64,000 nt of DNA, taken from assembly GCA_014058405.1 (NCBI GenBank), contig CP047423.1, positions 1,178,001 to 1,242,000 on the forward strand, given 5' to 3'. A program made the position numbers and the translations under genes. Under the pieces are notes generated by a model that was not told the DNA's origin, did not search any database, and saw only the letters and a list, made by a program, of their open reading frames with translations. This document shows, in pieces, positions 26,362 to 46,229 of the stretch (within the stretch, counting starts at the first letter, position 1; each line of letters opens with the position of its first letter). This stretch comes from Candidatus Nitrospira kreftii (lineage in GTDB: Bacteria > Nitrospirota > Nitrospiria > Nitrospirales > Nitrospiraceae).

Positions 26362-26437
26362 GATCAATAATACATAAGAGGCCAGAGGTCAGTGAAGACC
26401 GGAGCCCAAGGTGTCAGCATGACGCCTTGGGCTTTTT
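26355..26437 (+). ncRNA. Repeated structured RNA / attenuator leader, copy 1 (about 83 nt)
   Basis: The predicted transcript runs from about 26355 (seven bases after the -10) to the T-run at 26437. GAGGCCAGAGGTC (26378-26390) and GAAGACCGGAGCCCA (26394-26408) are shared with copies 2 and 3. GGTC and GACC pair around a 6-base loop. An outer GGC/GCC helix across a CAGA/GGA internal loop can also form, and it would compete with the terminator's 5' arm. A 13-bp terminator ends the module 33 bases before the fecI-type ATG. It is either a cis attenuator or a terminated small RNA. No known family is recognised. Confidence 0.65.
26403..26437 (+). terminator. Intrinsic terminator of RNA module copy 1
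   Basis: AGCCCAAGGTGTC (26403-26415) pairs with GACGCCTTGGGCT (26421-26433) with one G-T wobble. The loop is AGCAT and TTTTT ends at 26437. It lies before the sigma factor gene, so read-through must be allowed for expression from the upstream promoter. Confidence 0.85.
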
Positions 26438-26470
26438 GTTTGGGAAAAGGAACGCTAAAGGAGATATGCG

Positions 26471-27067
26471 ATGAGGACCGAGAGTCTGAATCTCGTCGAA
26501 GTAGAGTCCACGGTCTCGCGCGATGGGCGTGGTCTTGTGGACGATCCCATTGCTCTAACGTATGCGCAGATCGCATACTTGTTTCACCAGTACCGCGAGG
26601 AGCTTACTCGCCGGCTCATCGGCATGGTGAAATCCCGAGAGACCGCCGCTGACCTGGTGCAAGATACCTATCTACGGCTCCTTCGGCTAGGCAATCAGCA
26701 TGTCGTTGAGCAGCCACGTGCCTTGCTCCATAAAATAGCGACCAACCTGGCGATCGACCATTTACGAAAAGAAAAACACAGCGTTCCAGGAATCGATGGT
26801 TTGGACACGGCGATGGCGGTACCCTCTCACGGTCCGTCTCCGGAACGCGAGTTGCTCGGGAAACAACGGTTTCGACTCTTCATGCGAGCGATCGAACATC
26901 TCCCTCCCCGAACTCGTGAGGCGTTTCTACTCTGCCGAGTGTATGGGTACTCCTATCGAGAAATTGCGACACGCATGAACATCTCTGAAAGCGGTGTGGA
27001 AAAGTTGCTCATGCGAGCGCTCGACTGGAGTTGTCAGGCACTGGAGACGATAGACGATACCGAGTGA
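26471..27067 (+). CDS. FecI-type ECF RNA polymerase sigma factor
   Basis: This 198-residue sigma70 protein has regions 2 and 4 only. Region 2 includes LTRRLIGMVKSRETAADLVQ and DTYLRLLRLG. Region 4 includes HLPPRTREAFLLCRVYGYSY and REIATRMNISESGVEKLLMRAL, a helix-turn-helix. Small sigmas next to a FecR and a TonB receptor control iron-siderophore uptake. All three are adjacent here. AAAGGAG at 26457-26463 gives a good ribosome site for ATG 26471. The gene lies directly downstream of RNA module copy 1, which suggests iron-dependent synthesis plus possible attenuation. Confidence 0.92.
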   Translation: MRTESLNLVEVESTVSRDGRGLVDDPIALTYAQIAYLFHQYREELTRRLIGMVKSRETAADLVQDTYLRLLRLGNQHVVEQPRALLHKIATNLAIDHLRKEKHSVPGIDGLDTAMAVPSHGPSPERELLGKQRFRLFMRAIEHLPPRTREAFLLCRVYGYSYREIATRMNISESGVEKLLMRALDWSCQALETIDDTE

Positions 27068-34305: not shown

Positions 34306-35373
34306 ATGAAATCGAAAATCCTAGTTGGGATGATCGGAATCAGCGCTGTCATAGCAGGTTTGGCGGTCAAGCTGGGAGGCTGGTCGACGAGCGAGTCATC
34401 GGCTCCAATGCCTGCTGCGGACCAGCCTATGTTGGTGGAAATCGCTCCGGTTACCGTCGGTTCAATAACGGAATCCATCCAGGCCGTGGGGACGCTGGAA
34501 GCGGTCGCGTCGATTACCGTGAGACCGGAGATCGCCGGCGTCATTCGCCGAATCCACTTTCAAGATGGTCAGTCTGTCGAACGCGCAGCTCCGCTGTTGG
34601 AATTAGATCAGGAAGAGCTCCAGTCGCAACTGAATCAGGCGGCGGCGGAGGAGAAAATGGCGTTGGTGACCTATGAGCGGCTGAAGCGGATTGCTGAGCA
34701 GCAAACTGCCATTGTGCCGGCTCAACAGATGGATGAAGCCAGGATGGCGTGGCACGCGGCTGCGGCAAATGGTCGCCTGTACGCGGCTCGTCTCAAGAAA
34801 ACCATCATCCGAGCCCCGTTCGGCGGCACGCTGGGGTTTCGTCGTGTTTCGGTCGGCGATTACCTCCAGCCAGGGCAGGATGTGGTGAACTTAGAAGACT
34901 TGCAGAACCTCCATGTAGATTTCAAAGTTGCTGAGGTGTGGTTGAGCCGCCTGCATGTCGGGCAACTGCTGATCGTGACGACCGATGCCTTTCCAAACAC
35001 CACGTTCGACGGACATGTGACCGCGATCGATCCGAGAGTCGATGCCGTCAATCGCACCGTCGCGGTCCGTGCAGTTATTCCAAATCCAGTGGGCGCCCTC
35101 CGCCCAGGCCTTTTTGTCACTGTTCGGTTGACCCTTGGGGAAGATCCTCGGGCACTGCTCATTCCGGAGGAGGCCGTGTTTCTTCAGCAGGAGAAGAGCA
35201 TGGTGTTTCAGATCGAGGGCCAGACGGTCCGACTGAAAGACGTGACGCTTGGTGCCCGTGAACGGGGCATGGTCCACGTACGTGCAGGATTGAAGGAGGG
35301 GGATTCCGTGGTCAGGACGGGAACCCACAAGGTGCATGACGGCGATCTCGTCTCGATCAGATCAGCTGAGTAA
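34306..35373 (+). CDS. RND efflux periplasmic adaptor (membrane fusion protein)
   Basis: This 355-residue MFP has an N-terminal membrane anchor (ILVGMIGISAVIAGLAVKLG). The lipoyl half-motifs (RPEIAGVIRRIHFQDGQSV and IIRAPFGGTLGFRRVSVGDY) flank a coiled-coil hairpin (LNQAAAEEKMALVTYERLKR). A beta-barrel and a membrane-proximal domain follow. It links the inner-membrane pump (35430) to the outer-membrane channel (38489). The 180 bases between the FTR1 gene and this one hold no recognised operator. The substrate is not readable; siderophore or metal export is a guess from the neighbours. Confidence 0.92.
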   Translation: MKSKILVGMIGISAVIAGLAVKLGGWSTSESSAPMPAADQPMLVEIAPVTVGSITESIQAVGTLEAVASITVRPEIAGVIRRIHFQDGQSVERAAPLLELDQEELQSQLNQAAAEEKMALVTYERLKRIAEQQTAIVPAQQMDEARMAWHAAAANGRLYAARLKKTIIRAPFGGTLGFRRVSVGDYLQPGQDVVNLEDLQNLHVDFKVAEVWLSRLHVGQLLIVTTDAFPNTTFDGHVTAIDPRVDAVNRTVAVRAVIPNPVGALRPGLFVTVRLTLGEDPRALLIPEEAVFLQQEKSMVFQIEGQTVRLKDVTLGARERGMVHVRAGLKEGDSVVRTGTHKVHDGDLVSIRSAE

Positions 35374-35429
35374 CAGCACACCGTCCTGCTCAAGATGAGC
35401 GTGTCTTCCAAATACCATTCAGAGTAGGC

Positions 35430-38400
35430 ATGACCCTTTCCGAGACCTGTATCCATCGGCCTGTATTCGCGATCGTCATGACGCTGCTGCTGATGCTGTT
35501 CGGACTCTTGAGTTTTTTACGATTGCCCGTTCGCGAGTACCCTGACATCAAATCGCCGATTGTCTCGGTCCACACGGTGTACCCGGGCGCCAGCGCATCT
35601 GTTCTGGAGTCGGACGTGACCACGCCGCTCGAAGACGCACTGAGCGGCATTCAGGGGCTTCGGACGATCACCTCAGCCAGCCGCGAAGAAGTCTCCTTGA
35701 TCACGCTGGAATTTGAATTAGGACGAGATCTGGATGTCGCGACCAACGATGTCCGCGATCGTGTCTCACAGATCCGCTCGGTGTTGCCGTTGGGGATTCT
35801 CGAGCCTCATGTTGAAAAGGCCGCAGCGGAGAATACCGAAGCCTTGTTTCTCGCCCTCTCCAGCGAACGTCATTCCGAGTTGGAAATGTCCGACATCGCC
35901 GACCGGTTCGTCAAGGCGCGGCTGGTCATGATCCCCGGCGTGTCGTCGACATACCTCGACGGTGAACGGCGTTATGCTATGCGCATTTGGTTGGATCCCG
36001 ATCGACTCGCGGCCCGTCGCCTGACCGTTCAGGATGTCGAAGAGGCCATACGTAATCAAAACGCATCAATTCCGGCAGGGCGGATCGAGAGCGATCAGAT
36101 GGAATTCAGCGTCTCACTCAAAGGGACGTTACACACTCCGAAGCAGTTCGACTCGCTGATCGTCGCCTACCGGGACGGTTATCCGGTTCGACTGGAGGAT
36201 GTGGCGCGGGTCGAACTGGGCGCGGAAGATACGCGCAAGCTCGTGCGGTTCAACGGTCGATCATCGTTGGGCATTTCGGTATCTCGCCAGTCCAAGGCCA
36301 ACACGTTGGCTGTGGTGCGCGCTATCAAGGACCAACTGCCGTCCATTTCGGCGGGATTGCCGGACGGCATGACCCTGACGGTGGCCTGGGACAGTTCGAC
36401 GCCGATCGAACGCTCGCTGTATGAAGTGTATGTGGCGTTGAGCCTGTCGTTGCTTCTCGTGGTGATGGTGATCTACTGCTTCCTCGGGAGTGTGCGCGCA
36501 ACGATCGTGCCGGCTGTGGCCATCCCGGCCTCGATCGTCGGGACCTGCATAGTCATGTGGATTACTGGGTGTTCGTTGAACGTATTGACTCTCCTGGGTC
36601 TCGTGCTCGCCGTAGGCCTCGTGGTGGATGACGCCATCATCGTTCTCGAGAATATTCATCGCCGCATCGGAGCGGGCATGCCGCCATTGCGGGCGGCCAT
36701 CGAAGGCACGAACGAAATCGCCTTCGCCGTGGTTGCAACGACGATTTCGCTTGTCACCGTGTTCGTTCCCATCGCATTTCTGACCGGCATTGTCGGCCAG
36801 CTGTTTGCGGAATTATCCATCGCAGTCGCGTCGGCGGTGCTCTTGTCCGGCTTCGTGGCGCTGACCCTAACGCCGATGATGTGTGGACGCTTGCTTCGCC
36901 CCGACAGTGGGTTGGCTGGTTTTCGGTTCACCGTACGACTCGCGGACGATGTTGTTCAACGTTACCGTCGTGGACTGACATGGGCCATGCACGCACGAGT
37001 GGTCATTGTGTTCGTGGCGGTTGGAGCGAGCCTGGCGAGTCTGTCCATATTAAACCGACTTCCCTCCGAATTGGCGCCTCTCGAAGACGCAGGATGGTTT
37101 TCCGGCTTTCTCACCGCGCCGCAAGGCGCCACGCTTCGGTATACCAACACCTACGCCAAAGAATTGGAATCATTGCTCCAAACGGTACCTGAGATTGCTC
37201 ACGCGTACACCGTAGTGGCGCGCGGGGATCGACCGACGATGGTGAATCGCGCTGCGAGTTGGGTGACGTTGAAGGATTGGAATGAGCGAACGAGGAGTCA
37301 ACAGGAGATCGTTTCCGGCTTGAATCAAGAGATCGGCAAATTGACTGGGGTGAAAGCGTATTTGTTGAGCCCGCCTTCAATCGAGGAATGGTCGGAGAAG
37401 ACGCCTGTGCAGTTTGTCATCGGGGGATTGGATTATCAGGAACTGCAGCAGGCCGCCGACCAGATGGTCGCGCGGTTGGCCGACCACCCCGGATTTGTGG
37501 CGCCGGAAATCGATATCATGTTGAATGCTCCGCACCTGGCCGTCGAAACGCACCGCGACAAGAGCGCCGACCTTGGGGTGTCCGTCGTCTCCATTGGACG
37601 GACACTGGAGACCTTGCTCAGCGGAAGGCCGGTAGGCACGTTTATACAGAACGGCCGTCAATACAAAGTGATTGTGAAAGTCGACGACCGGCATCGCGAA
37701 AGACCATCCGATATCAGTCAGCTCTATGTGCGAGGGAATGACGGGGCATTGGTCCAGCTCAACAATGTCGTGACGGTCAAGGAGGTACCCGCGCCGGAAG
37801 CCCTAAACCACTTCGATCGCATGCGTGCCGTCACCATCAGCGCGGGATTGGCCGACGGGTACACATTGGGGCAGGCGTTGCCCTACCTGGATGGCACCTC
37901 ACGCGAAATCATCAAGCCTGGTATGCGGACGGCCTACGCCGGAGAATCCAAGACTTTCGCGGAAAGTAATCGAAACCTGTATCTGACATTCGTGTTGGCG
38001 TTGGTGGTCATCTTCCTGGTGCTTGCGGCGCAGTTCGAAAGCTTCCGGCATCCCTGGACGATCTTACTGGCAGTGCTTCCCGCCCTATCGGGGGCAGTGC
38101 TCTCCTTAGCCGCGATCGACGGAACCCTGACCATTTATAGTCAAATTGGGATGGTGATTCTGATTGGGTTGGTCACAAAGAATGCGATTCTCATCGTGGA
38201 ATTTGCCAACCAGCTCCGCGAACGGGGATTCGATGTGCATCAGGCAGTCATTGAAGCAGCCGCGCTGCGGCTTCGTCCGATCCTGATGACGACCTGCGCG
38301 ACGATCCTCGGGGCATTACCGCTTGCATTGGCTACCGGCGCGGGAGCGGCCGGACGTCGTCAGATCGGTGTCGTGATCATCGGTGGGTTGCTGGTGTCGA

Positions 38401-38486
38401 CGCTCGTCACCCTCGTCCTGGTTCCCGCCGGTTATACGATTCTCGCAGGGCGCGTGCGGAATTCTAAGGCGGAGGGAACACCATAG
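35430..38486 (+). CDS. RND efflux pump inner-membrane transporter (HAE1/MexF type)
   Basis: This 1018-residue transporter has 12 predicted helices and two large periplasmic loops. The N-terminus (TLSETCIHRPVFAIVMTLLL) is typical. LVVDDAIIVLENIHRRI in TM4 carries the paired aspartates of proton-driven hydrophobe/amphiphile exporters. VTKNAILIVEFANQLRERG in TM10 is also characteristic. There is no heavy-metal (CusA-like) signature. It is 56 bases after the adaptor and 2 bases before the outer-membrane factor, so the three form an operon. Confidence 0.94.
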   Translation: MTLSETCIHRPVFAIVMTLLLMLFGLLSFLRLPVREYPDIKSPIVSVHTVYPGASASVLESDVTTPLEDALSGIQGLRTITSASREEVSLITLEFELGRDLDVATNDVRDRVSQIRSVLPLGILEPHVEKAAAENTEALFLALSSERHSELEMSDIADRFVKARLVMIPGVSSTYLDGERRYAMRIWLDPDRLAARRLTVQDVEEAIRNQNASIPAGRIESDQMEFSVSLKGTLHTPKQFDSLIVAYRDGYPVRLEDVARVELGAEDTRKLVRFNGRSSLGISVSRQSKANTLAVVRAIKDQLPSISAGLPDGMTLTVAWDSSTPIERSLYEVYVALSLSLLLVVMVIYCFLGSVRATIVPAVAIPASIVGTCIVMWITGCSLNVLTLLGLVLAVGLVVDDAIIVLENIHRRIGAGMPPLRAAIEGTNEIAFAVVATTISLVTVFVPIAFLTGIVGQLFAELSIAVASAVLLSGFVALTLTPMMCGRLLRPDSGLAGFRFTVRLADDVVQRYRRGLTWAMHARVVIVFVAVGASLASLSILNRLPSELAPLEDAGWFSGFLTAPQGATLRYTNTYAKELESLLQTVPEIAHAYTVVARGDRPTMVNRAASWVTLKDWNERTRSQQEIVSGLNQEIGKLTGVKAYLLSPPSIEEWSEKTPVQFVIGGLDYQELQQAADQMVARLADHPGFVAPEIDIMLNAPHLAVETHRDKSADLGVSVVSIGRTLETLLSGRPVGTFIQNGRQYKVIVKVDDRHRERPSDISQLYVRGNDGALVQLNNVVTVKEVPAPEALNHFDRMRAVTISAGLADGYTLGQALPYLDGTSREIIKPGMRTAYAGESKTFAESNRNLYLTFVLALVVIFLVLAAQFESFRHPWTILLAVLPALSGAVLSLAAIDGTLTIYSQIGMVILIGLVTKNAILIVEFANQLRERGFDVHQAVIEAAALRLRPILMTTCATILGALPLALATGAGAAGRRQIGVVIIGGLLVSTLVTLVLVPAGYTILAGRVRNSKAEGTP

Positions 38487-38488
38487 CC

Positions 38489-40051
38489 ATGGAGAACAGA
38501 TCTTCGGTTCGTCGGTGCTTTGCGGCCGTCGTGCTCATCGTGTGGTGGGGGGGTCTGTCGTCACCGCAGAGTTGGGGCCTCGATGTGACCCAACCAACTC
38601 CTTTGGAACGTCATGAAACGGTGTCACTGGCCGATGCGGCCGTCCGCGCTCTGGAAAACAATCTCGACATTAGCCTCAGTCGCCACACCAAGGAAAGTCG
38701 ATTAGCCGACATCGTGATCGAACAAGCAAAGTTCGATCCTACGGTGAGTGTGAATGGTCAGTATCTGCGGACGGTCGACCCTCTCAACCGACCTGTGTTT
38801 GGGGCAACCGGGTTCCAGCTGAACCAAATTACCAAGTTCGACCAGCGTAACCATTCCCTGTCCGTTGATGCCTCGAAGACTCTCATGACCGGTGGCCATG
38901 TCGACATGAACTACAGCCCGGCCAGGAACAGTGTGAACCAGGATCTCGCCGAGGGGTTCCTGTTCAATCCCGCCTGGACCGGAGGCCTATCGTTCACCGT
39001 GACGCAACCGTTGCTCAAGAACGCAGGTGTCGCAGTGAATACCACCTTCATTAAGATTGCCCAAAACAATGCCACCGTCGAGCAGCATATCTTTCGAGAC
39101 CGAGTCTTAACGGTCATCGCCTTGGTCGAACAAAACTACTGGGAACTAGTGTACGCCCTAGAAAACGTGAAAGTCGCCCAAGCGGCGCTGAAGGCTGCTG
39201 AGGAACTGCTCGCCACCAATCGCATCAAGGCCAAAGCCGGCGTGATGTCCGTCGTCGACGTGCTTCAGGCGGAAGCTGCAGTGGCGTCACGTGTGGAGCA
39301 GATCCTGGTAGCCGAGAAAGCTATCCGCGATGAGGAAGATCAACTACGGACGCTTCTGAATCCTGGTGAAGTCGAGCTGCGGCAAACTGTGCGGTTGACC
39401 CCCGTTGATGCGCCCATCACTTATCTCGAGACCCTCAGTCTCGAAGAAGCCATCGAGACCGCGATCGAACAACGCCCGGAAGTCGCTCAGGCCAAAAAAA
39501 ACATCGAATCCAGTCAGCTGAACAAACAGTTTGCCCGCAACCAGTTGCTTCCCACGCTCTCCGTCCAAGGCACGATGGGACTTTCAGGATTAGGGAGTGA
39601 CTACGGAGGCGCGTTCACGAGAAACTTCAGCGGCGATTTCTATAACTATGGCGCGGGGCTGCTGTTCAGCTACCCGCTCGGCAACCGCTCTGCCATCAGT
39701 ACGTATAACAAACGGAAATTGGATGCCAAAAATGCCGAGGTGACCCTTGCAAGCGTCCGTCATCAGATTATTCTTGGTGTTCGCGAGGCCGTGCGTCGTG
39801 TGCAGACCGACTTCAAACGAATTGAGACGACCCGCTCGGCACGTATCTTGGCTGAGAAGCAATTGCAAACCGAGCAGGAACGGTTGAGGGTAGGGCTCAG
39901 CACCACGCGCTTTGTACTCGATTTCCAGCGAGATCTGGCGACTGCGCAAGGCAATGAGTTACGGGCCATCGTCGATTACAACAAATCGCTGTCCAATCTG
40001 GAACGACAGAAAGCCACCACGTTGGATCACTATCATTTGGAATTGTCGTAG
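38489..40051 (+). CDS. TolC-family outer membrane efflux protein
   Basis: This 520-residue protein has a signal peptide (FAAVVLIVWWGGLSSPQSWG). Two OEP repeats show the usual ALENNLDISLSRHTKESRLA opening and the repeated helical coiled-coil regions. LSLEEAIETAIEQRPEVAQA opens the second repeat, and RLRVGLSTTRFVLDFQRDLA closes it. It forms the exit duct of the RND system. The next 400 bases hold only RNA module copy 2. Confidence 0.9.
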   Translation: MENRSSVRRCFAAVVLIVWWGGLSSPQSWGLDVTQPTPLERHETVSLADAAVRALENNLDISLSRHTKESRLADIVIEQAKFDPTVSVNGQYLRTVDPLNRPVFGATGFQLNQITKFDQRNHSLSVDASKTLMTGGHVDMNYSPARNSVNQDLAEGFLFNPAWTGGLSFTVTQPLLKNAGVAVNTTFIKIAQNNATVEQHIFRDRVLTVIALVEQNYWELVYALENVKVAQAALKAAEELLATNRIKAKAGVMSVVDVLQAEAAVASRVEQILVAEKAIRDEEDQLRTLLNPGEVELRQTVRLTPVDAPITYLETLSLEEAIETAIEQRPEVAQAKKNIESSQLNKQFARNQLLPTLSVQGTMGLSGLGSDYGGAFTRNFSGDFYNYGAGLLFSYPLGNRSAISTYNKRKLDAKNAEVTLASVRHQIILGVREAVRRVQTDFKRIETTRSARILAEKQLQTEQERLRVGLSTTRFVLDFQRDLATAQGNELRAIVDYNKSLSNLERQKATTLDHYHLELS

Positions 40052-40281: not shown

Positions 40282-40324
40282 TTGACAGAAACGTTCTGCG
40301 TCATGTACTGATAGTAATTATCAA
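40282..40324 (+). promoter_or_regulatory. Promoter with overlapping Fur-box-like palindrome, copy 2
   Basis: TTGACA (40282-40287), 18 bases and TACTGA (40306-40311) repeat the geometry of copy 1. The palindrome TGATA-GTAAT-TATCA (40309-40323) is identical in sequence to copy 1. Fur binding is inference. It drives the RNA module before exbB-exbD-tonB. Confidence 0.72.
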
Positions 40325-40431
40325 AATCACTGAAGCTGAGACCGGCCTCTGATCGATGGTCTCAGTCAGAGGCCAGAGGTCGATCAAGACCGGAGCCCAT
40401 GGTTGCCTGGACGGCGGCTATGGGCTTTTTT
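40318..40431 (+). ncRNA. Repeated structured RNA / attenuator leader, copy 2 (about 114 nt)
   Basis: It has the same core as copy 1: GAGGCCAGAGGTC (40369-40381), then ATCAAGACCGGAGCCCA. It has an extra 5' insertion. In the insertion GAGACC (40338-40343) can pair with GGTCTC (40358-40363). Alternatively GGCCTCTGA (40344-40352) can pair with TCAGAGGCC (40366-40374), which would bury the conserved block. The two pairings exclude each other. The module ends in a strong terminator 24 bases before the exbB ATG. Role as in copy 1. Confidence 0.65.
40394..40431 (+). terminator. Intrinsic terminator of RNA module copy 2
   Basis: AGCCCATGGTTGCC (40394-40407) pairs over 14 positions with GGCGGCTATGGGCT (40413-40426), with three wobbles. 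The loop is TGGAC, and six Ts end at 40431. Pair 7 is T-A here but A-T in the other copies, and pair 12 is G-C here but T-A in them. Confidence 0.88.
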
Positions 40432-40454
40432 GATGTCTGAACGAAGGTAGGAAT

Positions 40455-40880
40455 ATGGATGTACTGAAGCATTTGGTGGATTACGGGATTATCGGCCTGC
40501 TGGTGGCGCTCAGCCTATGGGCGCTGGCCGTGGCGGTGGAGCGGTGGCTCTACTATCGGCGGGTGACGCCGGCGCAGTTCGAAAATATACAACTGCTGGA
40601 AATGGCATTGACGAAGCGACTGGTCGTGATCGGCACGGTGGCTGCCAATGCACCCTACATCGGACTACTAGGGACCGTCCTAGGCATCATGTTGACGTTT
40701 CATACGATGGGGACGTCGAGCACGATGGCGGTCGGCACGATTATGGTGGGGCTCAGTCTCGCACTCAAGGCGACAGCCATCGGGTTGTTGGTGGCGATCC
40801 CGTGCGTCGTGTTGAACAATATCTTACGTCGGCGTGTTTCCGAGCTGCTTACACTGTACAAGGTACAGCATGGAGCGTGA
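40455..40880 (+). CDS. exbB: TonB-system proton channel subunit ExbB (type 2)
   Basis: This 141-residue MotA/TolQ/ExbB protein has three membrane helices (about 9-27, 58-85 and 95-120). The channel motif ANAPYIGLLGTVLGIM is typical. The short length matches the type-2 ExbB of epsilonproteobacteria rather than the roughly 240-residue form. It pairs with ExbD and TonB to energise outer-membrane receptors. It begins 24 bases after the RNA module terminator and overlaps exbD. Confidence 0.92.
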   Translation: MDVLKHLVDYGIIGLLVALSLWALAVAVERWLYYRRVTPAQFENIQLLEMALTKRLVVIGTVAANAPYIGLLGTVLGIMLTFHTMGTSSTMAVGTIMVGLSLALKATAIGLLVAIPCVVLNNILRRRVSELLTLYKVQHGA

Positions 40881-41244
40881 ATTAAACCAAATCAACGTCA
40901 TTCCACTCGTGGATGTGATGTTGGTGCTGTTGGTCATTGTTTTGACCACGGCCACGTTCATTTCGACCGGTCAGGTCCCGGTCGAATTGGCGAAAGCCAA
41001 AGAAGTGAATGACCACAAGGATGTGCCGCTGATGATCACCCTGACGGCCGATGATCGGCTCTTCGTGAATGACCAACCCGTTTCGGCTGATGGTCTGACG
41101 GCGATGCTGAACGGACATCCACGCGAGTCGATCGTTGTCCTACGGGCTGATCGCGTCACGATCTTGGAGCGGTTTGTGGGAGTGGTCGATGAGGTCAGGG
41201 GCCTCGGATTTCGACAGGTCAGTTTGGAGGTCCTTCGATCATGA
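40870..41244 (+). CDS. exbD: TonB-system subunit ExbD (type 2)
   Basis: This 124-residue protein has one N-terminal membrane helix. INVIPLVDVMLVLLVIVL includes the essential aspartate of ExbD/TolR. A periplasmic domain follows (LTADDRLFVNDQPVSADGL). ATG 40870 overlaps the exbB stop by 11 bases. The upstream in-frame start at 40834 lies deep in exbB and is not used. The stop overlaps tonB (ATGA). Confidence 0.93.
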   Translation: MERELNQINVIPLVDVMLVLLVIVLTTATFISTGQVPVELAKAKEVNDHKDVPLMITLTADDRLFVNDQPVSADGLTAMLNGHPRESIVVLRADRVTILERFVGVVDEVRGLGFRQVSLEVLRS

Positions 41245-42086
41245 CCACCTTCGAATTCAATCGCATCAACGCGAACGCGATTCCCGAACAGGCACGGGGT
41301 TGGATGGCGTCCGTCATGCTGCATCTCCTGGGTTTTGCCGCTGCGACGCTTGTGATGGCGGAGATTGAGCGTCCTGTTCCACGCGAGTTGTTTCAGTGGG
41401 ATATCTCGATGGTTGACTCGCCGACCCCATCTGAATCGCAGCCGACTGAACCGGTTGTGCAATTGCCTCCCTCTCCTGTCAAGCCGAGTCCTCCCGTCCG
41501 ACAGACAAAACCGACGATTGTCGAGCAACCTCTGCCGAGGGCGCCACAGGAGGTCACGGTTCCGGTGGAAACGACTCAGATGGTCAAGGACGTGGTCACG
41601 AATGCCGAGCCAGTGATGGAATATGCTGCCGTGGAGTCGACAGACCAACCAGTGGTTGCACCGCAAGCTGTTGTGGCGGAACCGGTAGAGTCTTCTGATC
41701 GGCCGATGATCGAACAGGCGCGCATGGTTTCGACAGCGCCAACCTTTGAGCATCGCATGGTGCAATATCGGCCCGTGCGCCATCGGGAGACCAGGACGGA
41801 TTATGGTTGGCTTCGCGATCTCCTCTGGAAACGCATCGAAGAATTAAAACACTATCCAAGGCTCGCGAGAGAGAACCACTGGGAGGGCAGGGTCGTCGTC
41901 CAAGCAGTCATTAAGGCGGACGGCACAGTCGGGGATCTCAGTGTGGCAGAAAGTTCAGGGCATGCCTTGCTGGATCAGGATGCGTTGGTGGTGATGAGGA
42001 AAGCCTCTCCCTTGACGTTGGTACATCAGATGGAGAGAGCGCAGATTACCATTCTAGTTCCGATCAGCTATCGCTTGGAAGGGTAG
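41241..42086 (+). CDS. tonB: Energy transducer TonB
   Basis: This 281-residue protein has an N-terminal membrane helix (MASVMLHLLGFAAATLVMA). A Pro/Glu/Val-rich periplasmic spacer follows (PPSPVKPSPPVRQTKPTIVE), and then a C-terminal TonB domain. The domain contains HYPRLARENHWEGRVVVQAV and VAESSGHALLDQDALVVMRK, with the usual final strand. It reaches through the periplasm to the TonB boxes of receptors. It is the third gene of the exbB-exbD-tonB operon. Confidence 0.92.
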   Translation: MTTFEFNRINANAIPEQARGWMASVMLHLLGFAAATLVMAEIERPVPRELFQWDISMVDSPTPSESQPTEPVVQLPPSPVKPSPPVRQTKPTIVEQPLPRAPQEVTVPVETTQMVKDVVTNAEPVMEYAAVESTDQPVVAPQAVVAEPVESSDRPMIEQARMVSTAPTFEHRMVQYRPVRHRETRTDYGWLRDLLWKRIEELKHYPRLARENHWEGRVVVQAVIKADGTVGDLSVAESSGHALLDQDALVVMRKASPLTLVHQMERAQITILVPISYRLEG

Positions 42087-42700: not shown

Positions 42701-42883
42701 ATGAGCGAATCACGCGCAGCGGTGTCGGGTGTGGACGTTCGGTGCCGCTGTGGGAAGCTGATCGCCCGCTGGGAAGGTGAGAGTCTGGTCATCAAGTGTA
42801 CGCGCTGCCGACGATTCGTCAGGATTCTCGCGTCAGCCATCGGCGGAAGGCCACCTGATCTACAGCCTGGCATACACCGATAG
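42701..42883 (+). CDS. Com-like small zinc-finger protein
   Basis: This 60-residue protein has two CxC/CxxC knuckles: VRCRCGKLIARWEGESLVIK, then CTRCRRFVRI. That resembles the phage Mu Com translational regulator (RCxCxKLL...IKCPRC). It is short and basic at the end. ATG 42701 follows AGGGTAGGACT. It sits between the tonB operon and the PepSY gene. No other phage gene is near, so a nucleic-acid-binding role is inferred only from the motif. Confidence 0.7.
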   Translation: MSESRAAVSGVDVRCRCGKLIARWEGESLVIKCTRCRRFVRILASAIGGRPPDLQPGIHR

Positions 42884-43103
42884 TCTCCCGCCATCGTGGG
42901 TCCACTCTCCAGGATCTAATTCTAGGAGGTTGGCATGGTCTTACTGATTGGGAGAGGCGGAGAGCTCGGCGCCACGTATGTCGTACCCCGTGGGTTGCCG
43001 CGTTGAGAGCCAGGTGGAGGATCGGTGTGTTAGTACGTCTTACTTGAATGGACGGGTCTGTTCAACGCCCGACGACTTACCATGAATTGATTGAGTGATT
43101 GCC

Positions 43104-44333
43104 ATGATGACCGACCGGTTCGGGACCGGCATCGCACAACCGGAGTTGACGAACTCCCTTGAGGAACCAAAAGCCCTCTCCACACCGGCGCCCGCGCAGT
43201 CTCGTCTCAAGCTCAAGAAAGTCTGGCTGAACCTCCATCTCTATCTGGGGCTATTCGGCGGAGCACTATTCGTATTGATGAGTCTCACGGGCAGTTTCTT
43301 AGTGTTCTATAAAGCCATCGACGAATGGCTGAATCCGACACAGATGACGACGAGCGGCTCCGGCTCCTACAGGCCGCTGAATGAGGTGGTGGCGACAGCC
43401 CAGACCGCTGCTCCTCCCGGCGGCTGGTTGGACAGCCTTGAATTGCCCTCCTCTGAGCGCGAGGTTTTTAAAGCCTGGCATAAGGTGCCGACTGACCAGC
43501 TCGACCGCTATCGGTCGTACCTGGTTACGATTGACCCCTACACGGGAGCCGTCTTAAGCCGCGACCGTGAATGGGGCACATATCTCGTCTCGTTCATCTA
43601 TGAGTTGCATGAATCGTTGTTGATCGACGAGCTTGGTCGGACTCTTGTGGGCTTTGTCGCCTTCTTTCTTCTGGTCTCAATCGGCACGGGCCTGTCTCTC
43701 TGGTGGCCCCGGTCGGGGAGAGTACGGCAGGCATTCCTCCCCGTCGCGAGTACAAGCCGGATCCGTCGACACTATCAGTGGCACAAACTCAGTGGGGCGT
43801 ACGGCGCAATCACGCTGGCTGTGCTCGCGCTCACAGGCCTGTACTTAGCGTTTCCTAGCTACGTGGTCCCGCTCGTCTCCATGTTTTCTCCAGTGGATGA
43901 ATCAAGCGATGAAAGCTCTGCGCAATCCCATCCAGTCTCGGGCGTGACATCCCTCACCGTTGAGCAGGCAGTCGGACTTGTCCAGCGCCAGTTTCCGGAT
44001 GGAAGGATCACATACATCGGCATTCCTCGTGAAGTCACAGACGTGTACCACATGACGATGCACCGGCCCGGGGATGTCCGAGAATCGGTCGGAAGCAGCA
44101 CGGTCTGGTTGGACCAATACAGCGGGGCCGTGCTCAAGCTGCGTGATTGGCAAACCTTCTCTGCGGGGGAGACGTTTGTGGCCTGGCTCTTTCCTTTGCA
44201 TAACGGGGAGGCGTTTGGGTTGATTGGTCGGTGGATCGTGTGCGTCACCGGATTCGTCCCGCTGCTGTTGTACGTCACCGCGCTTCGCATGTGGCGGCTG
44301 AAACGGACTGCGTATCGACGGCAATCGGCCTAA
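43104..44333 (+). CDS. PepSY-associated membrane protein (iron-regulated, putative reductase)
   Basis: This protein of about 409 residues has four membrane helices (LYLGLFGGALFVLMSLTGSF; then about 180-205, 235-260 and 360-390). PepSY-like periplasmic domains lie between them. HxxxG-type histidines in the helices (WLNLHLYLGLFGG, FIYELHESLL) could bind heme. This family occurs with TonB siderophore systems and is proposed to reduce ferric siderophores. Three starts are close (GTG 43095, ATG 43104, ATG 43107). It is downstream of the ExbB-ExbD-TonB block. Confidence 0.88.
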   Translation: MMTDRFGTGIAQPELTNSLEEPKALSTPAPAQSRLKLKKVWLNLHLYLGLFGGALFVLMSLTGSFLVFYKAIDEWLNPTQMTTSGSGSYRPLNEVVATAQTAAPPGGWLDSLELPSSEREVFKAWHKVPTDQLDRYRSYLVTIDPYTGAVLSRDREWGTYLVSFIYELHESLLIDELGRTLVGFVAFFLLVSIGTGLSLWWPRSGRVRQAFLPVASTSRIRRHYQWHKLSGAYGAITLAVLALTGLYLAFPSYVVPLVSMFSPVDESSDESSAQSHPVSGVTSLTVEQAVGLVQRQFPDGRITYIGIPREVTDVYHMTMHRPGDVRESVGSSTVWLDQYSGAVLKLRDWQTFSAGETFVAWLFPLHNGEAFGLIGRWIVCVTGFVPLLLYVTALRMWRLKRTAYRRQSA

Positions 44334-45708: not shown

Positions 45709-45813
45709 ATAAGTTGAAGTGGGAAGCGCGCAGAGTACCGAGTGCGCTGTTAGGAGCGAGGCCAGAGGTTGTGAAGACCGGAGCCCAAGGTGTCGAAGGA
45801 TGCCTTGGGCTTT
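45702..45813 (+). ncRNA. Repeated structured RNA / attenuator leader, copy 3 (about 112 nt)
   Basis: The core GAGGCCAGAGGTT (45758-45770) then GTGAAGACCGGAGCCCA is shared with copies 1 and 2. GGTT pairs with GACC through one wobble, so the hairpin is kept despite the base change. A 5' insertion contains an AGCGC/GCGCT hairpin (about 45725-45749). A 13-bp terminator ends the module. The next gene, a LuxR-type HTH protein, starts 98 bases later. Confidence 0.62.
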
Positions 45814-45816
45814 GTG
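45782..45816 (+). terminator. Intrinsic terminator of RNA module copy 3
   Basis: AGCCCAAGGTGTC (45782-45794) pairs with GATGCCTTGGGCT (45799-45811) around GAAG, with two wobbles. The T-tract is weak (TTTGTGTT), so read-through may be higher than in the other copies. Confidence 0.78.
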
Positions 45817-45911
45817 TTATACGCCCTCGCATTCAGCTCCCGGTTAATATCGAGTCAGGCGCAAGGAAGTCGCGGGGTCTAATGCATTTGTATGAAAAGA
45901 GGTGTCGGGCT

Positions 45912-46229
45912 ATGGAACCTTCCCAGAGCTTGGATGATCGGAAGCAACAGGCAATTGATATTCGTCCACGGGTTCGCGTGCTGCTGATCGATGATTCTGT
46001 CGTGACTCTGGATGAAGGCAAGGCTCTCTCCCATCACAAGACGGGGGAATGCTGCTCGATCGAAGATCTGAGGATCCTCGCGCTTGTCGCAGCGGGAAAA
46101 ACCGACAAAGAAATTGCCCACCAACTGGATCTCGCGCCATGCGTTATCACAACTCGTCTGCGAAGGATCTACAAACGTGTGAAGATTACGAGGAGAGCGG
46201 AAGCAGTACAAGTACTTTGCGCAGGCTGA
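45912..46229 (+). CDS. Small LuxR-type helix-turn-helix protein
   Basis: This 105-residue protein has a C-terminal LuxR HTH (about 50-103). EDLRILALVAAGKTDKEIAH and LAPCVITTRLRRIYKRVKIT match the 'l...aG.snkeIA..l..s..tv..h...i..Kl' pattern. There is no receiver domain. The N-terminal 45 residues (VRVLLIDDSVVTLDEGKALS) look like a degenerate start of one. ATG 45912 has AGAGGTG upstream; in-frame starts further up lie in the RNA module and are not used. Its place downstream of RNA module copy 3 suggests control with the iron genes. Confidence 0.72.
   Translation: MEPSQSLDDRKQQAIDIRPRVRVLLIDDSVVTLDEGKALSHHKTGECCSIEDLRILALVAAGKTDKEIAHQLDLAPCVITTRLRRIYKRVKITRRAEAVQVLCAG

Follow-up and report, generated by a model that had tools for sequence, protein, structure and literature searches.

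The Com protein of phage Mu is a translational activator and not an antiterminator (PMC6483171). Com of the Mu type binds an RNA, IA, which contains CCAGAG, and selection (SELEX) with a Mu-like Com gave the motif GAGNNCC(N)2-3GAGNNCC, in which two cores flank a stem of 3-4 nt (PMC6483171). At the exbB locus of Candidatus Nitrospira kreftii, an RNA element with a CCNGAG half-site on either side of a short hairpin was found together with a gene for a Com-like zinc-ribbon protein.

The exbB leader, positions 40282-40431 of the window (the whole 64-kb stretch of DNA that was analysed), is flanked by an outer-membrane efflux gene on one side and by exbB on the other. It contains TTGACA, 18 nt, TACTGA, an AT-rich Fur-box-like dyad, an insert of about 35 nt, the core, a terminator and TTTTTT. 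The core reads GAGGCCAGAGGTC-GATCAA-GACCGGAGCCC and is followed directly by the strong terminator and its TTTTTT. The same promoter layout was seen in element copies 1 and 3. An RND efflux operon (CusB-type HlyD, AcrB and the outer-membrane protein) occupies 34306-40051, directly 5' of the leader. The features of the locus are as follows.

26378-26441, plus strand: element copy 1, upstream of genes for an ECF sigma factor (26471-27067), FecR and a TonB receptor
40282-40311, plus strand: promoter-like sequence read in the DNA, TTGACA (40282-40287), 18 nt, TACTGA (40306-40311); putative promoter
40306-40328, plus strand: Fur-box-like sequence TACTGATAGTAATTATCAAAATC, by match to the Fur consensus
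40336-40365, plus strand: hairpin A (CUGAGACC/GGUCUCAG), upstream of the core and leaving it free; recurs in exbB/tonB leaders
40344-40374, plus strand: rival helix B (GGCCUCUGA/UCAGAGGCC), burying the core; specific to copy 2
40358-40374, plus strand: B2, a third alternative found by folding, GGUCUC/GAGGCC with one U-G pair
40369-40434, plus strand: element copy 2, a predicted attenuator with conserved core, P1 and terminator (covariance model R1, 68.0 bits)
40373-40378, plus strand: first CCNGAG half-site, CCAGAG
40378-40391, plus strand: P1 hairpin, GGUC/GACC, covarying across the attenuator family
40390-40395, plus strand: second CCNGAG half-site, CCGGAG, overlapping the terminator foot
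40394-40431, plus strand: intrinsic terminator AGCCCAUGGUUGCC/GGCGGCUAUGGGCU, then U-tract
40455-40880, plus strand: exbB (Pfam MotA_ExbB, 2.1e-26)
40870-41244, plus strand: exbD (Pfam ExbD, 2.1e-21 on the ORF 40834-41244; the ATG at 40870 was chosen from the sequence)
41241-42086, plus strand: tonB (Pfam TonB_C, 2.9e-17)
42701-42883, plus strand: Com-like Cys4 zinc-ribbon gene, 60 aa, after exbB-exbD-tonB; proposed trans-acting reader
45758-45819, plus strand: element copy 3, upstream of a small GerE/LuxR-type ORF (45882-46229)

The element is a 63-nt attenuator of the form rGGCCAGAG-[hairpin]-CCRGAGCCC-[terminator]. Its core, GAGGCCAGAGGTC, is identical in copies 1 and 2 and reads GAGGCCAGAGGTT in copy 3. 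Among 126 distinct sequences all four pairs of P1 covaried (4/4), and for P1 and the terminator together 14 of 17 pairs carried changes on both sides, with 95.6% of cells paired compared to at most 46.7% when the strands were slid. GGCC and AGAGCCC/GGGCU were nearly invariant despite unrelated downstream genes. CCNGAG flanks P1 on both sides; the first half-site was exact in 88 of 122 copies, the second in 97 and both in 79. A covarying intrinsic terminator was present in all copies, with a start codon shortly 3' of it. The leader thus has an intrinsic terminator between the promoter-like sequence and the start codon, the arrangement by which a transcription attenuator is recognised, and is predicted to act as one. 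A sequence-only reading had described the exbB leader as an attenuator with a conserved core and with compensatory changes in the terminator stem. The former is supported, and the latter was recovered as a change from A-U to U-A at alignment pair 32/54. Three degenerate elements (L119:6071, L121:1841 and L090:10399) occur in one clade, upstream of ECF-sigma genes, and have an altered core; in two of these, with a GGACC core, the terminator foot pair G-C is changed to C-G and the stem is kept.

The distribution of the element was determined by a strict pattern search, followed by a covariance model built from 21 copies and a second model built from 68. Phyla beyond Nitrospirota were searched by the strict pattern only. 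The strict pattern gave exactly three copies in the genome, all inside the window, and in a scan of GTDB contigs it occurred only in records of the Nitrospira group. The second model gave six copies in the genome, two of them weak. With the covariance model the element was found in 64 of 79 genomes of the genus and, at an E-value of 1e-4 (E-values being rough), in 145 of 396 Nitrospirota genomes. Genes for ECF sigma factors, ExbB, TonB, TonB-dependent receptors, BFD-type ferredoxin and multicopper oxidase follow the elements, as do genes for small AraC-type regulators, HD-domain proteins, CbiX-like proteins and porins. Where the downstream gene was labelled, 76 of 106 elements were no more than 60 nt from its start, and copy-3-type elements were 50-260 nt from the next gene. 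Fur-box-like sequences were observed upstream of the iron genes exbB (10/11), tonB (10/11) and BFD (9/9). A Fur match of at least 12/19 was present in 10 of 11 exbB leaders, compared to 1.1 expected from shuffles. At HD, porin and receptor genes, Fur-box-like sequences were absent or lay away from the core. No match to Rfam 15 at the gathering threshold was obtained in the window, and in 12 relatives there were only two NsiR1 hits at chance level (E 0.31 and 0.84). In the literature searched, of which coverage was partial, a description of the element was not found. The element is a previously uncatalogued, widespread RNA attenuator of the Nitrospira group.

ECF-sigma leaders L087, L101, L091 and L117 also contain a conserved CTAGG...CCTAG complementarity (tctaggtgagacgg...tttcgggcctag) about 50-100 nt upstream of the elements. 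This stretch occurs in ECF-sigma leaders that have no Fur box beside the core, and it may be another structured domain or a promoter region.

Many elements are accompanied by a small ORF with the pattern RCxCGqLxAR...KCKRCRR. The top Pfam match of the encoded protein was Zn_ribbon_Com (PF10122), with an E-value of 0.059 for the window copy and 4.4e-4 for the best relative, at scores (13.3 and 20.1 bits, respectively) below the gathering cut-off of 22.9. The best PHROG was 'translational regulator', with values down to 3.5e-6, and hhalign against three phage Com proteins gave a probability of 96.9% over 32 columns. Four cysteines are conserved, the first knuckle being CxC and the second CxxC. 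By the hhalign comparison, the protein is distantly homologous to phage Com in its Cys4 zinc-finger region. Foldseek of the predicted structure (pLDDT 74) gave no significant match among viral models, and a profile search of solved structures gave nothing relevant. The genome contains a second Com-like gene (G000:C1:3090612), 3.3 kb upstream of an element at 3094092. Downstream of the Com-like gene in the window, a PepSY_TM membrane protein is encoded at 43095-44333; such proteins often accompany iron-siderophore uptake. At another locus (L153, G000:C1:3096300-3098400) a divergent element (861-926) is preceded, at a distance of about 31 nt, by the end of another small ORF, which is basic and rich in Cys (MTTPTQSTFLICLHCHRPL...). 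This ORF perhaps encodes a second type of partner protein.

The element and the Com-like gene occurred together to a large extent. Among 396 Nitrospirota genomes both were found in 126, the element only in 19, the Com-like gene only in 16 and neither in 235; many of the element-only matches outside the class are weak. After correction for kinship to genus level the association had an odds ratio of 42 (p 3e-16). Of the 56 Com-like genes in 40 genomes, 50 were located no more than 7 kb from an element; 48 shared its strand and 18 were at a distance of 150 nt or less. At seven exbB loci the Com-like gene was 2.3-2.5 kb downstream of the element, and it is therefore possibly read from the same leader. 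In HD_5 loci (L065, L094, L098, L103 and others) the spacing between the Com-like gene and the element that precedes the HD_5 gene was nearly constant at 3.3-3.4 kb. The interval in L065 contains porin O/P-like and FMN-binding genes, and a MauG-like gene follows HD_5.

According to the sequence-only reading, an insertion in the exbB leader allows either GAGACC to pair with GGTCTC or a second pairing that buries the GAGGCC block, and the two were proposed as rival, regulatory helices. Both pairings are present. In helix A, CUGAGACC (40336-40343) pairs with GGUCUCAG (40358-40365) by eight Watson-Crick pairs; in helix B, GGCCUCUGA (40344-40352) pairs with UCAGAGGCC (40366-40374) by nine, and GAGGCC is indeed buried by B. 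They are unlikely to have arisen in copy 2 through chance; any 8-bp helix occurred in only 2.2% of dinucleotide-shuffled leaders, and an 8-bp helix ending on the core in none of 2000 shuffles of the exbB leader. The two helices have no bases in common and together make an H-type pseudoknot with zero-length loops, so that both cannot form fully and they are sterically exclusive, as had been claimed. Enforced energies over 40318-40392 were -23.0 kcal/mol for A, -25.9 for B and -23.6 for B2 (GGUCUC 40358-40363 with GAGGCC 40369-40374). A and B thus differ by less than 3 kcal/mol. Equilibrium folds of growing transcripts were dominated by A at 3' ends 40366-40372 and by B from 40374. The CC of the first half-site is taken up in helix B but stays unpaired with A. 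No competition of A or B with the terminator was observed in the full-length folds tested; the terminator hairpin still formed with A, B or B2 enforced, and the rival helices alone therefore cannot decide between termination and read-through.

Leaders of exbB and tonB were collected from relatives, and 17 were aligned for hairpin A. All 17 had a hairpin at the same place, 3 nt 5' of GAGGCC, with widely diverging sequences, e.g. CCGAGGCC...GGACCTCGG and CCAGATGCC...GGCATCTGG. In the simple eight-pair register five of eight pairs were changed on both sides, and 78.7% of cells, a figure lowered by bulges in some members, were paired compared to at most 61.5% when slid. Support for hairpin A comes from per-sequence folds and pair counts; RNAalifold on A6 preferred another, weak helix set (-1.8 kcal/mol). 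Helix B gave no covariation in relatives beyond shuffles. The close orthologue (L085/G009) lacks the 5' arm of B, and in G076 this arm is weak. Of the two rival helices, A is thus conserved in relatives but B is not. In folding ensembles, pairing of the core with upstream sequence was below that of shuffled leaders (exbB 0.32 vs 0.45, tonB 0.28 vs 0.48), copy 2 being an outlier at 0.99. Because of this low pairing and the recurrence of hairpin A, the upstream hairpin seems to serve as an insulator, holding the core unpaired. Helix B appears to be an idiosyncrasy of copy 2, essentially private to it, and could tune that leader alone, at most by affecting access to the first half-site. Without conservation of B, and with the terminator forming either way, the proposal of a regulatory A/B switch was not supported.

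The following course of events is proposed. Transcription would start at the Fur-box-like promoter, with Fur controlling initiation at iron genes. In the RNA the insulating hairpin A would come first, followed by the core GGCCAGAG-P1-CCRGAGCCC and by the intrinsic terminator, of which the 5' foot is AGCCC at the end of the core. By default, transcription would terminate before exbB. The Com-like protein, whose gene in this genome belongs to the same cluster and lies further downstream, would bind the two CCNGAG half-sites flanking P1. Owing to the overlap of the second half-site with the terminator foot, such binding should prevent the terminator from closing and permit read-through into exbB-exbD-tonB, and probably into com itself. 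The Cys4 site might make binding metal- or redox-sensitive. On balance, it is somewhat probable that the Com-like protein binds the core, blocks the terminator and allows read-through.

The Com-like zinc-ribbon protein acting on the core is a likelier controller than the rivalry of A and B. It is highly improbable that these helices are a switch of their own, setting read-through by hiding or exposing the core with no trans-acting protein: both are real, exclusive and close in energy, and in the first half-site the CC is covered by B, but B lacks covariation and is absent in orthologues, core-upstream pairing in exbB/tonB leaders lies below the shuffled level, and the terminator forms with either helix. 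A compact, nearly invariant core shared by many metal-related genes, next to a covarying P1, could also suggest a riboswitch, in which termination is prevented by direct binding of a metal ion or small metabolite to the core and P1, and the Com-like gene is a mere member of the regulon. This is considered unlikely, as apart from the terminator the element has a single short covarying hairpin, and both the CCNGAG half-sites and the tight linkage to the Com family would be left unexplained. A known riboswitch was rejected, no Rfam hit above chance level having been obtained in the window or in the 12 relatives.

The same linkage evidence also speaks for a Com-like protein that, once bound to the element, stabilises termination or else acts on translation as a repressor or activator, and Mu Com itself acts on translation (PMC6483171). 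Such a role is quite unlikely, given that the second half-site is the terminator foot, so that binding competes with the closed terminator, and that a strong terminator precedes the start codon. Very unlikely is a family of Fur-controlled, trans-acting small RNAs, where the promoter and terminator yield a short RNA with a target elsewhere, and transcription reaches the downstream gene by read-through only. The promoter-like sequence, core and terminator do fall within about 110-150 nt, most iron-gene copies have Fur-like boxes and copy-3-type elements stand 50-260 nt from the next gene. However, most elements are at most 60 nt from a start codon, the downstream genes are many and different, and copies at HD genes follow another gene and have no Fur box near the core.

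If read-through controlled by the Com-like protein is true, the main group of nitrite-oxidising and comammox bacteria would possess a new family of RNA leaders and, with it, a dedicated RNA-binding regulator. For these organisms few genetic tools exist, and little post-initiation regulation has been described. The Com fold, which until now has been known from phage Mu and relatives, would also gain a cellular role. Tentatively, and with less confidence than is placed in the binding and read-through, a phage-type Com may have become a chromosomal metal- or redox-sensing antiterminator in Nitrospirota, which reads a bipartite CCNGAG element in numerous leaders. Fur-regulated iron/TonB genes, as well as HD, AraC and other regulators, would thereby come under a second control at the level of RNA. 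Both partners are small, the protein having 60 aa and the RNA about 60 nt, and the pair is testable in vitro.

Candidate antiterminator structures were also considered. Pairing of GAGGCC with GGCUUU of the terminator 3' strand can be drawn but is too weak to compete with the terminator, and likewise pairing of GGC with GCC of the terminator 5' foot. The invariance of these segments prevents a covariation test of such pairings; degenerate copies L119 and L121 hint at GAGGCC/GGCUUU but are too few. ANTAR-type hexaloops were rejected, the loop length of P1 being variable and a second such hairpin being absent.

Like the riboswitches of Rfam 15, the element is a conserved structured leader upstream of functionally related genes. 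With the leaders read by protein-dependent antiterminators (BglG/LicT, HutP and ANTAR proteins) it shares a recognition site that overlaps an intrinsic terminator and a default state that is predicted to be off. The protein folds and RNA motifs of those systems are unrelated to the Com-like protein and the element, and in contrast to them the Nitrospirota element has no evident alternative antiterminator hairpin. Compared to Mu Com, the Nitrospirota protein is bacterial and its first knuckle is CxC. The target site merges into an intrinsic terminator, unlike that of mom, and belongs to many iron and metal genes, with no mom gene. The spacer is CC-N1-GAG in the Nitrospirota element and CC-N2-3-GAG for Com, and CCNGAG therefore resembles the Com SELEX motif but is not a match to it. 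The two systems are alike in a Cys4 zinc-finger protein of about 60 aa, related to phage Com by the hhalign result above, in an mRNA leader where a short stem is flanked by a bipartite GAG/CC motif, and in the location of the com gene near its target.
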